The notes under the pieces are model-generated. The model saw nothing but the letters and a program-made list of their open reading frames with translations. It had not been told where the DNA came from and did not search any database. 64,000 nt of DNA from Salinicoccus sp. Bachu38 (GTDB taxonomy: Bacteria > Bacillota > Bacilli > Staphylococcales > Salinicoccaceae). The translations under genes and the position numbers were made by a program. Shown piece after piece: positions 44,306-46,675 of the stretch (its first letter is position 1; every line of letters starts with the position of its first letter). The stretch is taken from the NCBI RefSeq assembly GCF_038561955.2, contig NZ_CP138333.2, forward strand, positions 1,984,001 to 2,048,000, given 5' to 3'.

Positions 44306-45367
44306 TTATAATAGGTCCGTCTTCAGGCGGCTGTTCAGCCGGTGGCGTTCAATCGACAGCGTGACCAGCCGGTCCAGAAGTTCGGGATAGCTGATGCCCG
44401 ATGCTTCCAGCAGTTTCGGGTACATGCTGATGCTGGTGAACCCGGGAAGCGTATTGACCTCATTCACGATGACCTCCCCATCATCCGTCAGGAAGACATC
44501 CACCCGCGCCATCCCTTCGCAGTCGAGGGTCCTATAGACGGTGCGGGCAGTCTGGCGTATCTTTTCAGCAGTCGGCTGCTCGAGCCTCGCCGGGATTTCC
44601 AGTGCCGCCCCGCTCTCATCGATGTATTTCGATTCATAGGAGTAGAACTCGGTATTCGCCACGATTTCGCCAGGTACGGAAACGGTCAGATCCGTATTGC
44701 CGAGGACCGAGACTTCGATTTCGCGCCCCTGGACTGCACTTTCGACCATCACTTTCGTATCGAATTCGAATGCCAGGGCGAGGGCTTCATGGAATGACCG
44801 CTCATCCGTCACTTTCGACACACCGACCGAAGAACCCTGGTTCACCGGTTTGATGAACATCGGCAGACCGAGGTCCGCTTCCACTGCGTCGTAGTCCACC
44901 GCGTCCTTTTCCTCATGGCGGAAGACCACCCAGTCGGCCACATTGGTACCCTCAAGCTTCAGGAGGCGCTTTGTCATATCCTTGTCCATGCAGACCGCCG
45001 AACTTCTGACATTGCAGCCGGCGTAAGGGACGCCGATCATTTCAAGCACCCCCTGGACGATGCCGTCCTCCCCGGCCGTACCGTGCAGTATCGGCAGTAC
45101 GGCATCAAAGTGGTGCGTACCCTTTTCGGAGATGAACTGCTGCGATGGCACAATGGAGAGGCGGACGCCGTTGTCCCCATCCGTCAGCGCTTCGATCCGC
45201 TCGGACTGGTCCGCCAGCAGCCACTCCCCCTGCTTTGATATATGGATCAGGTGGATGTTGTACTTGTCCCTATCGAGTGCACCCAGTACACTTTCGGCAG
45301 AACGCATGGATACTTCATGCTCCGTCGACTGTCCACCGTATAAAATTCCTAAATTCAACTTTTCCAT
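44306..45367 (-). CDS. ddl: D-alanine--D-alanine ligase
   Basis: Joins two D-Ala for peptidoglycan precursors; ATP-grasp enzyme of 353 residues. LGILYGGQSTEHEVSMRSAE is the N-terminal signature, LPILHGTAGEDGIVQGVLEM with GVPYAGCNVRSSAVCMDKD the second, and EGMARVDVFLTDDGEVIVNE plus NTLPGFTSISMYPKL the metal/nucleotide motif. FYSYESKYIDESGA has Tyr in the omega-loop position expected for a D-Ala rather than D-lactate ligase, so vancomycin susceptibility at this step is expected. murF, its usual neighbour in staphylococci, is absent. ATG 45367 follows GGGAG. Confidence 0.93.
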   Translation of the reverse strand: MEKLNLGILYGGQSTEHEVSMRSAESVLGALDRDKYNIHLIHISKQGEWLLADQSERIEALTDGDNGVRLSIVPSQQFISEKGTHHFDAVLPILHGTAGEDGIVQGVLEMIGVPYAGCNVRSSAVCMDKDMTKRLLKLEGTNVADWVVFRHEEKDAVDYDAVEADLGLPMFIKPVNQGSSVGVSKVTDERSFHEALALAFEFDTKVMVESAVQGREIEVSVLGNTDLTVSVPGEIVANTEFYSYESKYIDESGAALEIPARLEQPTAEKIRQTARTVYRTLDCEGMARVDVFLTDDGEVIVNEVNTLPGFTSISMYPKLLEASGISYPELLDRLVTLSIERHRLNSRLKTDLL

Positions 45368-45516
45368 GTTAACACTCCCAGGTCGAGATTTTCTATGTTT
45401 GCAAGTCTCCATGAATCATCAATGGAATGGTACTACTATATTATCACAGAGCACCCTCCACTTCCCTCATTTACATGTGCCGGGGGACAAAAAATTCAAC
45501 TGTTCGACGAAATATA

Positions 45517-45545
45517 TTGACAATTCAAAATTTAATTGATAGGAT
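45517..45545 (+). promoter_or_regulatory. sigma-A promoter of the pheA leader transcript
   Basis: Consensus -35 TTGACA (45517-45522), 17-base spacer, and -10 TAGGAT (45540-45545). Transcription would begin near 45552, about 26 bases before the leader peptide start. Confidence 0.75.
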
Positions 45546-45577
45546 TGAACACAACTTAAAGGAATTGGGTGGTTCAT

Positions 45578-45637
45578 ATGGACGGCGTATATTATGGAAC
45601 TCAATTGAATACCTTTTTCTTCAGCTATTTTAGATAG
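45578..45637 (+). CDS. phenylalanine leader peptide of the pheA attenuator
   Basis: A 19-codon frame, MDGVYYGTQLNTFFFSYFR, directly downstream of a strong promoter and upstream of pheA. It carries four Phe and three Tyr codons; three Phe codons are consecutive (45614-45622) with Tyr and Phe just after. GGGTGG at 45567-45572 is a plausible ribosome site, with AAAGGAA a little upstream. This is the pattern of enterobacterial pheL leader peptides, whose translation senses charged tRNA-Phe. No T-box sequence such as AGGGTGGNACCGCG is present. It is too short for ordinary gene finding. Confidence 0.72.
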   Translation: MDGVYYGTQLNTFFFSYFR

Positions 45638-45794
45638 CGTCTATATTCCATCGTGGATATAGGCGGACTGTATCTATGATGGCTGATTTGAATGAAATTT
45701 TCATTCTTGGCCATTTATGAAATCTAAATGGCTGGGATTTTTATTTTTATGGACCATTTGGATTTCTCTTGTAAATAGAGCAGTCCAGATGGTC
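45638..45794 (+). promoter_or_regulatory. attenuator with alternative hairpins upstream of pheA
   Basis: Pairings seen: P1 45638-45649 with 45655-45665 (11 bp, directly after the leader stop); ATGGC 45679-45683 with GCCAT 45710-45714 enclosing GAATGAAA/TTTCATTC; GCCATTTA 45710-45717 with TAAATGGC 45725-45732; ATCTAAATGG 45722-45731 with CCATTTGGAT 45754-45763 (10 bp, one G-U); GACCATTTGGA 45752-45762 with TCCAGATGGTC 45784-45794 (terminator). Neighbouring pairings are mutually exclusive, giving a chain of switchable structures ending in an antiterminator or a terminator. Confidence 0.65.
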
Positions 45795-45805
45795 TTTTAT
45801 TTTAT
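45752..45805 (+). terminator. intrinsic terminator in the pheA leader
   Basis: An 11-bp stem (one G-U) with inner CTCT/AGAG pairing and a TTTTATTTTAT tail, ending about 20 bases before the pheA start, so it must act as an attenuator rather than an end-of-gene signal. Confidence 0.75.
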
Positions 45806-45823
45806 ATATTGGGAGTGGTAAGG

Positions 45824-46675
45824 ATGCTGATCGGATATCAAGGTGTAGAAGGATCATATAGTGAAATGGCGTGCAGGACTTTCGCAGGGGACGGATCATA
45901 TGAAATGAAGGGCTGTCCCACCTTCAAGGCGCTTGTCGACGACCTGATGCGGGACAGGGTCGATTACATCGCCCTGCCCGTCGAAAATTCCACAAGCGGT
46001 CCGATTACTCGGACGATCGACCTGATGAAATACTTGGAAGTGGATGCGGTGGAGGAGATCTATGTCAAGATCGACCATGCACTGATCACCAGGAAACCGG
46101 TGGCAATCGAAGAGCTGACAGAGGTCTATTCCCACCCCGAGGCACTAGAGCAGTGCTATAGCTACCTGAGCAGCCATCCGCATCTCGAAGTCCGTGAATA
46201 TTCGGATACGGCCGACGCGGTCAGGATGGTCAAAGCTTCCGATGACCCGACCGTGGCCGCCATCGCCGGCAGCCATGCCGCCGAGATGTATGGCATGAAC
46301 GTCGCACGTGAAAATATCAGCGACAATCCATATAACACTACACGGTTCCTCTTCTTCAGAAAAGGGGCGAAGCCGCGGCTGAAAAATACGAACAAGACAT
46401 CACTCTACATCGAGACGGACCACAGCACCGGGTCACTGAATGAAATACTCAACATCTTCAGCAGGCACGGCATCAACCTGCTGAACCTGACTTCAAGGCC
46501 GATACAGCATAAGCCATTCTCCTACGGCTTCTTCATCGATGTTGAAAAGGGGACGGACGATACGCTGCACTATGCGCTCGATGATATAGAAAAGGTCAGC
46601 AGGTATATCAACATTCTCGGCACCTATCAGAAAGGGAAGATCCCCTCCTATGAAGGCGTCCTTGTAAACGAATAG
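45824..46675 (+). CDS. pheA: prephenate dehydratase
   Basis: Converts prephenate to phenylpyruvate, the committed step to phenylalanine; 283 residues. Catalytic domain (about 1-180) with LIGYQGVEGSYSEMACRTF, IALPVENSTSGPITRTIDL and the diagnostic NPYNTTRFLFF (Thr172-Thr173). An ACT domain (about 192-265) with TSLYIETDHSTGSLNEILNI and LLNLTSRPIQHKPF (TSRP for the usual ESRP) should give feedback inhibition by Phe. Start ATG 45824 follows GGGAG; the frame upstream through TTG is not used. Expression is likely controlled by the leader peptide attenuator directly upstream. Confidence 0.93.
   Translation: MLIGYQGVEGSYSEMACRTFAGDGSYEMKGCPTFKALVDDLMRDRVDYIALPVENSTSGPITRTIDLMKYLEVDAVEEIYVKIDHALITRKPVAIEELTEVYSHPEALEQCYSYLSSHPHLEVREYSDTADAVRMVKASDDPTVAAIAGSHAAEMYGMNVARENISDNPYNTTRFLFFRKGAKPRLKNTNKTSLYIETDHSTGSLNEILNIFSRHGINLLNLTSRPIQHKPFSYGFFIDVEKGTDDTLHYALDDIEKVSRYINILGTYQKGKIPSYEGVLVNE

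Follow-up and report, generated by a model that had tools for sequence, protein, structure and literature searches.

What controls pheA, the gene for prephenate dehydratase, in Salinicoccus sp. Bachu38? T-boxes are the common Firmicute device for the control of amino-acid genes, and our covariance model search recovered 15 of them in this genome, but all lie outside the window (i.e., the whole 64,000-nucleotide stretch of contig NZ_CP138333.2 analysed here) and none at the pheA leader, in agreement with an initial annotation made from the sequence alone. Two of these 15 matches stand in tandem (G000:C1:519572-520035; L001 and L008). A T-box or another riboswitch in the pheA upstream region would have refuted that annotation; no Rfam family reaches its gathering score in the window.

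We read the segment 45517–45823 (coordinates are those of the window, forward strand unless stated otherwise) as a ribosome-mediated transcription attenuator of pheA that would respond to charged tRNA-Phe. This reading, to which we give a probability of about 0.8, relies on sequence comparison and modelling, in the absence of any experiment on the locus. Leader-peptide attenuation as such is likely, while the exact relay proposed below, through two strands called a and b, is probable but less sure.

The Leader Frame Upstream of pheA

A sigma-A-type promoter was located by a promoter scan (45517–45545) and its boxes can be read directly: TTGACA starts at 45517, TAGGAT ends at 45545, the spacer measures 17 bases, a TG stands ahead of the −10 box, and 10 of 12 positions match. 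As a class, promoter-like sites are not commoner in the region scanned than in its shuffled versions (2 vs. a mean of 3.5), so the support for this promoter comes from the recurrence of similar boxes 5′ of the leaders of relatives, not from site frequency. Downstream, a probable ribosome-binding site (GGGTGG, 45567–45572; GAGTG at the same place in many relatives) precedes the leader frame MDGVYYGTQLNTFFFSYFR (45578–45637), which comprises 19 codons (45578–45634), seven of them aromatic, and a TAG stop codon (45635–45637), the peptide ending in FFFSYFR-stop. The putative sensor codons are TTT TTC TTC (Phe-Phe-Phe, 45614–45622); such a Phe triplet is rare in the window without being unique, as it occurs in 3 of the 909 short frames with an ATG start on the two strands, nested starts included. 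The promoter, the frame, the Phe triplet, the seven aromatic codons and the hairpins had all been named in the initial annotation, and each was found where it had been placed.

The leader folds better than its shuffled versions (z −5.42; 0/200). It is followed by the pheA ribosome-binding site (GGGAGTGG, 45811–45818) and by pheA itself (45824–46675), which encodes a prephenate dehydratase (PF00800 match) of 283 aa with an ACT domain. On the other side and in divergent orientation (44306–45412, reverse strand) lies a frame whose translation looks, by eye, like a D-alanine-D-alanine ligase.

Alternative Helices between the Frame and pheA

From the end of the frame onwards, most strands of the RNA have more than one possible partner. 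Strand s1 (AGCTATTTTAGATAG, 45623–45637) is the frame end itself and pairs with s2 (CTGTATCTATGATGGCT, 45668–45684) in the absence of a ribosome, while strands a (45638–45648) and b (45655–45665) pair with each other. Alternatively, b and the loop before it (45648–45662) can pair with s2 (45668–45682), to which they are complementary over 15 positions, and s2 can also pair with s3 (45679–45684 with 45709–45714). These strands are backed by folding and pair counts, b and s2 also by simulation, and s1 also by a match of our covariance model R1 (45614–45685, 82.4 bits). Two hairpins follow, both backed by folding, simulation and a swap test. The first (s3:s4, hereafter T1; 45705–45748) consists of a hairpin at 45705–45737 and its own T-run (TTTTTATTTTT, 45738–45748). 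The second (s5:s6, hereafter T2; 45751–45805), with its T-run, is the last terminator before pheA, its stem ending at 45795, 28 bases ahead of the ATG at 45824. As alternatives, s3 (45709–45714) can pair with s2, and s4 (45722–45731) with s5 (45754–45763).

The two helices of the initial annotation, GCCATTTA:TAAATGGC and ATCTAAATGG:CCATTTGGAT, are real, but its reading of s3:s4 as non-terminating does not stand: GCCATTTA:TAAATGGC lies directly 5′ of the T-run TTTTTATTTTT and is thus a second terminator candidate. Over the 123 resolved elements of the wider family described below, a T-run (at least 5 T in 8) follows s3:s4 in 11/17 pheA and 9/16 aroE elements, in 3/22 DAHP synthase and 5/67 transporter elements, and in the single unclassified one; it is thus chiefly ahead of pheA and aroE that s3:s4 seems to act as an additional terminator. 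Nothing is proved by the T-run after s5:s6, since elements were selected for it.

A Putative Relay from the Ribosome to the Terminators

In the mechanism that we propose, translation, stalling, the geometry of the leading edge, the kinetic order of folding and termination itself are all inferred. RNA polymerase would transcribe the 19-codon frame with a ribosome following. The leading edge of a ribosome lies about 15 nt from the first base of the P site; from this value and the coordinates, a ribosome whose A site contains a Phe codon is predicted to cover the RNA to about 45626–45632, leaving a free, and a ribosome on the stop codon to about 45647, which exposes only the last base of a. When tRNA-Phe is scarce, the ribosome would stall on the Phe triplet, covering part of s1 and not a; a:b would hold b, s2 would stay free for s3, and s4, thereby freed, would pair with s5, so that both terminators would be blocked and pheA transcribed. 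When Phe is ample, the ribosome would reach the stop codon and cover a, b would capture s2 (15 base pairs), T1 and T2 would form and transcription would end. Without translation, s1:s2 and a:b would lead to the same terminated state. The initial annotation had left unexplained how a stalled ribosome is relayed to the two helices that it named; the chain a:b / b:s2 / s2:s3 lies upstream of these helices and would supply the relay, neither s2:s3 nor b:s2 having been part of that annotation.

Equilibrium folding does not reproduce such a switch. Without a ribosome, s1:s2 (0.95), T1 (0.99) and T2 (1.0) are formed, and T1 of the window leader remains at 0.88–0.99 under every mask, which does not bear out a purely thermodynamic switch. 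The idea that a stall frees s2 just by covering s1 is contradicted, for b captures s2 at equilibrium when s1 is masked, and it is this capture that made it necessary to add the a:b hairpin to the model.

In a simplified simulation of cotranscriptional folding, the window leader stalled on the first, second or third Phe codon gave T1 at 0.00, 0.01 and 0.24 and T2 at 0.00, 0.04 and 0.17, respectively, whereas a ribosome on the stop codon gave 1.0 and 0.95. In a repeat on the same leader (L009), the stalled state had T1 at 0.26, T2 at 0.15 and s4:s5 at 0.81, and the stop state T1 at 1.0 and T2 at 0.82; in the first simulation, s4:s5 was taken from final structures only. For the window leader, the outcome was the same at k0 2e6 and, with the stalled ribosome only, at slower transcription (judged by the two main structures); at k0 2e4, the stall state partly forms T1. 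Altogether, 8 of the 123 resolved elements were simulated, i.e., L009 and seven homologues, one of which (L015) is unscored. The expected direction is clear in L165 and L151, partial in L046 (from stop to stall, T1 falls from 1.0 to about 0.5 and T2 from 1.0 to 0.82) and weak in L200 (T1 from 0.82 to 0.72, T2 unchanged). In L042 only T1 follows it (1.0 to 0.82), T2 going in the wrong direction (0.0 on the stop codon, 0.74 stalled), and in L021 T1 goes the opposite way (0.09 on the stop codon, 0.53 stalled), with T1 at 0.86 for its stop state alone at k0 2e6.

Pairing and Covariation

Pair counts over 91 distinct sequences support the first part of the chain. Taken together, s1:s2 and a:b have 93.6% standard pairs vs. 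at most 43.0% when slid, and 130 two-sided changes vs. 33.0 when shuffled; the corresponding values for b:s2 are 88.0% vs. at most 44.8%, and 52 vs. 12.6. For b:s2, three of five measures beat all 500 shuffles, while the other two do not (38/500 and 152/500). The alignment had been fitted to the s1:s2/a:b structure and not to b:s2, and b also pairs with a; in these counts, b:s2 and a:b are competing helices.

The later strands were compared by a swap test on 51 representatives of the 123 resolved elements, themselves from 160, the rest being unresolved or identical. Separately, L067 dropped out of set A2 ahead of A3 and A4. For s4:s5, pairing with the own partner reaches −10.96 kcal/mol vs. 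−9.11 kcal/mol with partners of the same gene class (0/2000, z −5.8), while the controls s1:s4, s1:s6 and s2:s5 show no cognate excess in the same representatives. Thus, s4:s5, which excludes both s3:s4 and s5:s6, covaries. No covariation is observed within class for s2:s3 (−12.40 vs. −12.32 kcal/mol; free swaps 35/2000), a strong helix (−12.4 kcal/mol vs. −7.3 for s2:s5) that is conserved rather than covarying; for s3:s6, swaps within class give nothing (239/2000) and free swaps a weak signal (19/2000). Finally, part of the excess of s3:s4, s5:s6 and s1:s2 in this test is built in, because folding was used to choose T1 and T2 (together with the T-run for T2) and the fit to s1 to choose s2.

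Conservation at pheA within the Family

A pheA protein search returned a match in 30 of the 33 genomes of the family. The frame and the hairpins stand directly 5′ of pheA in 12/12 genomes of the window's genus and in 9/9 of a second genus, and no leader appears in the 330 bases upstream of the remaining nine pheA genes. Relatives with the hairpins and without a Phe-rich frame would have refuted the initial annotation; none was seen, both frame and hairpin set being present in 21/21 pheA leaders found (21/30 family pheA genes). Model R1 has at least two copies in each of these 21 genomes and at least one in 30 of the 33 family genomes. At one of the nine pheA genes without a leader of their own (L038), an element with FYF codons lies before a DAHP synthase gene, which adjoins pheA upstream, and pheA may be under this element as the second gene. 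Among the matches listed by a scan of public contigs (see below), Salinicoccus albus, a Jeotgalicoccus and Aliicoccus persicus are carriers from the family, the S. albus leader (L258) matching that of a genome in the window's genus (L019). Also among the matches listed, Oceanobacillus jeddahense (Bacillaceae) has an element before pheA too, with leader MLKHPSRQLNRFFFSYFR.

Elements of the pheA and DAHP synthase types coexist in the same genomes, including that of the window, whose second copy (G000:C1:132806-133006, L046; leader MLLTKQQQHNRFYFSYF) precedes DAHP synthase and, at 64.8 bits, exceeds the gathering score of the Rfam family RF02863. A third copy in a genome of the window's genus (L158, G025:C6:280798-280877 plus downstream sequence) has a leader with Trp and Tyr codons, MFRTINSNIWYSYRR, and is followed by a gene that resembles, by eye, a sodium symporter.

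Putative Sensor Codons and Downstream Genes

Codons were counted in 67 distinct elements, selected for at least two aromatic codons of three; L018, unclassified by gene call, was counted as pheA because the pheA protein search places pheA there. The middle sensor codon is Phe in 19/19 distinct pheA leaders and Tyr in 19/19 distinct DAHP synthase leaders, the three codons ahead of Ser being xFF (FFI once) in the former and xYF in the latter. Outside these counts, it is by eye Tyr in L128–L130, L132, L137, L139 and L140; also uncounted are L156–L160, L133 and L122, which repeats L038. Some pheA leaders have lost a single Phe codon (DFF, LFF, FFI, YFF), and 7/19 pheA elements have another codon in place of the Tyr codon of SYF (4 SDF, 1 SHF, 2 SRF), as against 0/19 DAHP synthase elements. 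As the pheA elements form one clade, the codon switch amounts to one event, and an independent-contrast test of codon vs. gene had only one independent pair and no significance. What sequence and comparison establish is the frame, its codons, the helices that could form and how well these are kept, and the difference in codons that sets pheA copies apart from DAHP synthase copies. The inference of the initial annotation that translation speed over the Phe codons is the switch has support from comparison and computation, the simulations being mixed in homologues, and none as yet from experiments at this locus.

The end of the peptide suggests another possibility, namely a TnaC-like arrest in which the nascent SYFR-stop end would stall the ribosome on free Phe and not on uncharged tRNA. 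In most elements, the final four residues vary strikingly little, and a ribosome that stays on the stop codon would yield the terminated state, but s1:s2 pairing can account for this constancy, DAHP synthase copies (own and second genus) end in SYF-stop without Arg, one pheA copy (L013) ends in SYFI, and the Trp-type copies described next end otherwise. Moreover, the uniformity seen in our scan of public contigs proves nothing, since that scan demanded the SYFR nucleotides. We give such an arrest very little credence and retain attenuation through charged tRNA-Phe.

The Rfam family RF04312 (trpB motif) widens the range of codons. Among the 16 loci fetched, 12 are of Trp type, one of His type, two of Phe/Tyr type and one without a recognisable leader (L082); 7 of the 12 Trp-type leaders end in WQxWR[RK] and 10 precede an ABC_sub_bind-like gene, no downstream frame of 100 aa having been called for L070 and L074. 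Equivalents of s1, a, b, s2 and s3 can be drawn in most of the 13 Trp and His loci, with both s1:s2 and a:b weak in L072 and L077, and s1:s2 alone in L074; as s2 was chosen here for its fit to b, that fit does not count as evidence. The His locus (L077, G063:C19:14519-14626) has an HHHH leader before hisZ-hisG, behind an RF04312-like hairpin; the weakness of both of its helices leaves its kinship with the scaffold uncertain.

A Wider RNA Family

Below the gathering scores, two Rfam families match the window element: RF02863 (sRNA_2410; 44.7 bits, E 3.7e-06, gathering 61), from s1 to T1, and RF04312 (33.6 bits, gathering 59), from b to T1. The first of these had been missed by the initial annotation. 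All other families in a permissive scan of the window were chance-like. The RF02863 model has matches in 27 of 299 genomes of the class, eight of them above the cut-off, and the loci that were read have the same architecture with other downstream genes. Our own model R1, built from 22 sequences, recovers both L063 and L064 among these loci; it includes the sensor codon columns and is thus biased toward F/Y codons. R1 matches 35/398 genomes of the class (Bacilli), in 11/145 genera, 32/157 genomes of the order and 4/398 genomes drawn across the phylum, one of which is outside the class. Where copies could be classified, the downstream genes encode prephenate dehydratase, DAHP synthase, shikimate dehydrogenase (aroE) and TrpX-like ABC_sub_bind proteins and, in single or rare cases, a DHQ-synthase-like protein, shikimate kinase, a BrnQ-family transporter and sodium symporters. 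In the clostridium Terrisporobacter mayombei (L197), an element of 61.8 bits with RF02863, whose leader ends in YYFSYFR, precedes the BrnQ-family transporter, which may therefore carry aromatic amino acids. In Enterococcus (L238; by eye also L181, L218 and L252), an aromatic leader precedes a protein (L238: 244 aa) whose match covers just a part of 3-dehydroquinate synthase (PF01761) and which is perhaps a diverged AroB-like protein.

A DNA-pattern scan of public contigs, which demanded F/Y codons and the SYFR nucleotides, has at least 120 matches; given these demands and the restriction to the matches listed, it provides neither rates nor a test of the residues demanded. Among the matches listed, 98 have the s2 motif, and an open ATG-started frame runs into the F/Y codons in 98/98; among the 22 without it, 11 have an ATG-started frame. 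Unrelated bacteria among the matches listed (Rickettsiaceae, Borreliella, cyanobacteria, Aquimarina and others) were rejected as chance. The 11 matches with a frame but no s2 motif come from Lactobacillales and are probably genuine elements whose s2 has diverged.

The Rfam entry for RF02863 would make the RNA a trans-acting sRNA gene, with read-through to pheA secondary. Its Rfam type is “Gene; sRNA”, and an RNA named sRNA_2410, of 195 nt and with two transcripts, was validated by Northern blot in E. faecium (PMC5593968, available in part); its name leads us to regard it as the source of RF02863. However, the element is placed and oriented before aromatic genes, and s4:s5, which breaks the last terminator, covaries, a helix that a stand-alone sRNA would not need. 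While an additional trans role of the terminated RNA is not excluded, an sRNA gene as the primary function is barely credible in comparison with an attenuator.

A small-molecule riboswitch, whose RNA would itself bind an aromatic amino acid or a precursor of one, the frame being merely incidental, has been put forward for apparent relatives. In 2015, two riboswitches of S. agalactiae, gbs2033 and gbs1262, were proposed upstream of paralogous ABC transporter operons, with short and long transcripts in RNA-seq, the gbs2033 type also occurring before aroFBC-tyrA of E. faecium and one resembling gbs1262 before a trpB gene (PMC4448216, as far as its accessible text goes). From the description, without alignment, we infer that they are the same as the present elements, which we read as leader-peptide attenuators where that paper sees ligand-binding riboswitches; “leader peptide” is absent from its main text, and neither the RF02863 nor the RF04312 entry has one in its name, type or printed description. 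Strong conservation of the RNA and its alternative structures would suit a riboswitch, but the frame runs into the F/Y codons in every one of the s2-motif elements among the matches listed, the codons before the stems vary with the gene (Phe, Tyr, Trp, His) on a constant scaffold, and most of the invariant columns fall, by eye, in codons or in strands capable of pairing. We consider direct ligand binding highly unlikely and keep to attenuation by a leader peptide, for which the short transcripts of the apparently related RNAs in S. agalactiae and E. faecium also speak.

Comparison with Known Attenuators

In the enterobacterial pheL and trpL leaders, a short frame with clustered codons for the end product is combined with mutually exclusive hairpins and a terminator before the gene. 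In general architecture, the window leader has these three traits in common with them. Unlike in pheL and trpL, the antiterminator strand s2 starts about 30 bases past the stop codon, the terminating ribosome would act remotely by masking a, which lets b capture s2, and there are extra strands, s4 to s6. A relay through a masked strand a is not known for trpL or pheL. The hisL leader of Salmonella and E. coli features an alternation of six strands. In general architecture, the present leader resembles it as a domino of alternating helices with the terminator last, and differs in its codons, in the a/b module in front and in the T-run that often follows s3:s4 (11/17 resolved pheA leaders). Part of the system might be mentioned in a comparative study from 2003 on aromatic regulation in low-GC Gram-positive bacteria.

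The initial annotation had set enterobacterial pheL against the usual T-boxes of Firmicutes; leader-peptide attenuators are, however, not foreign to the latter, where they are already known or proposed for other pathways (PMC5794164, PMC9413887 and PMC2965389, each available in part). The ilv-leu operon of S. aureus, a staphylococcal relative, has a leucine-rich attenuator peptide backed by mutants and reporters; it differs by its Leu/Ile codons and by an antiterminator that pairs with the poly-U tail (PMC5794164, accessible portion; sequences unaligned). Leader-peptide attenuators have also been proposed by comparison for Firmicute His leaders (PMC2965389, PMC9413887), and a frame with a Phe codon, uORFC-13-1, before aroF (the DAHP synthase gene) of Acholeplasma (PMC8632094); judging from the available parts of these papers, they belong to other lineages than the present elements (sequences unaligned). 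The main text of the RNA maps of E. faecalis and E. faecium (PMC7724050, available in part) does not mention the element, and we found no paper that calls the present elements leader-peptide attenuators, subscription journals being mostly uncovered. The claim of the initial annotation to an undescribed control system is thus partly right, with the reservation that the RNA family is already in Rfam, as an sRNA, and that similar elements of Streptococcus have been put forward as riboswitches.

Implications for Aromatic Amino Acid Regulation

The window leader should work like pheL, trpL or hisL, with a scaffold and a relay of its own. Beyond pheA, the odds are barely better than even that there is one reprogrammable attenuator scaffold in Firmicutes (s1, a, b, s2, s3 and so on), with exchanged sensor codons, placed before aromatic genes and read by a ribosome that would remotely mask a. 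At those same odds, it would govern pheA through Phe codons, the operons of DAHP synthase and aroE through Tyr/Phe codons, and TrpX-like transporters through Phe/Tyr or Trp codons; a few sodium symporters would also be among its targets, as would perhaps hisZG, with His codons. The scaffold may unite several unexplained RNAs; if the reading is true, it would by itself account for two function-less Rfam families and two proposed riboswitches, providing a possible function for the RF02863 and RF04312 RNAs and an alternative to the riboswitch proposal. The presence of Phe, Tyr, Trp or His codons on the same scaffold would then be a natural experiment in the re-specification of a regulator, while the a/b relay is a testable proposal for the way in which a ribosome at a stop codon could control a hairpin outside its footprint. 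Altogether, our results indicate that a group of Firmicutes holds the synthesis and uptake of aromatic amino acids under leader-peptide attenuation, beside T-boxes in the same genome.
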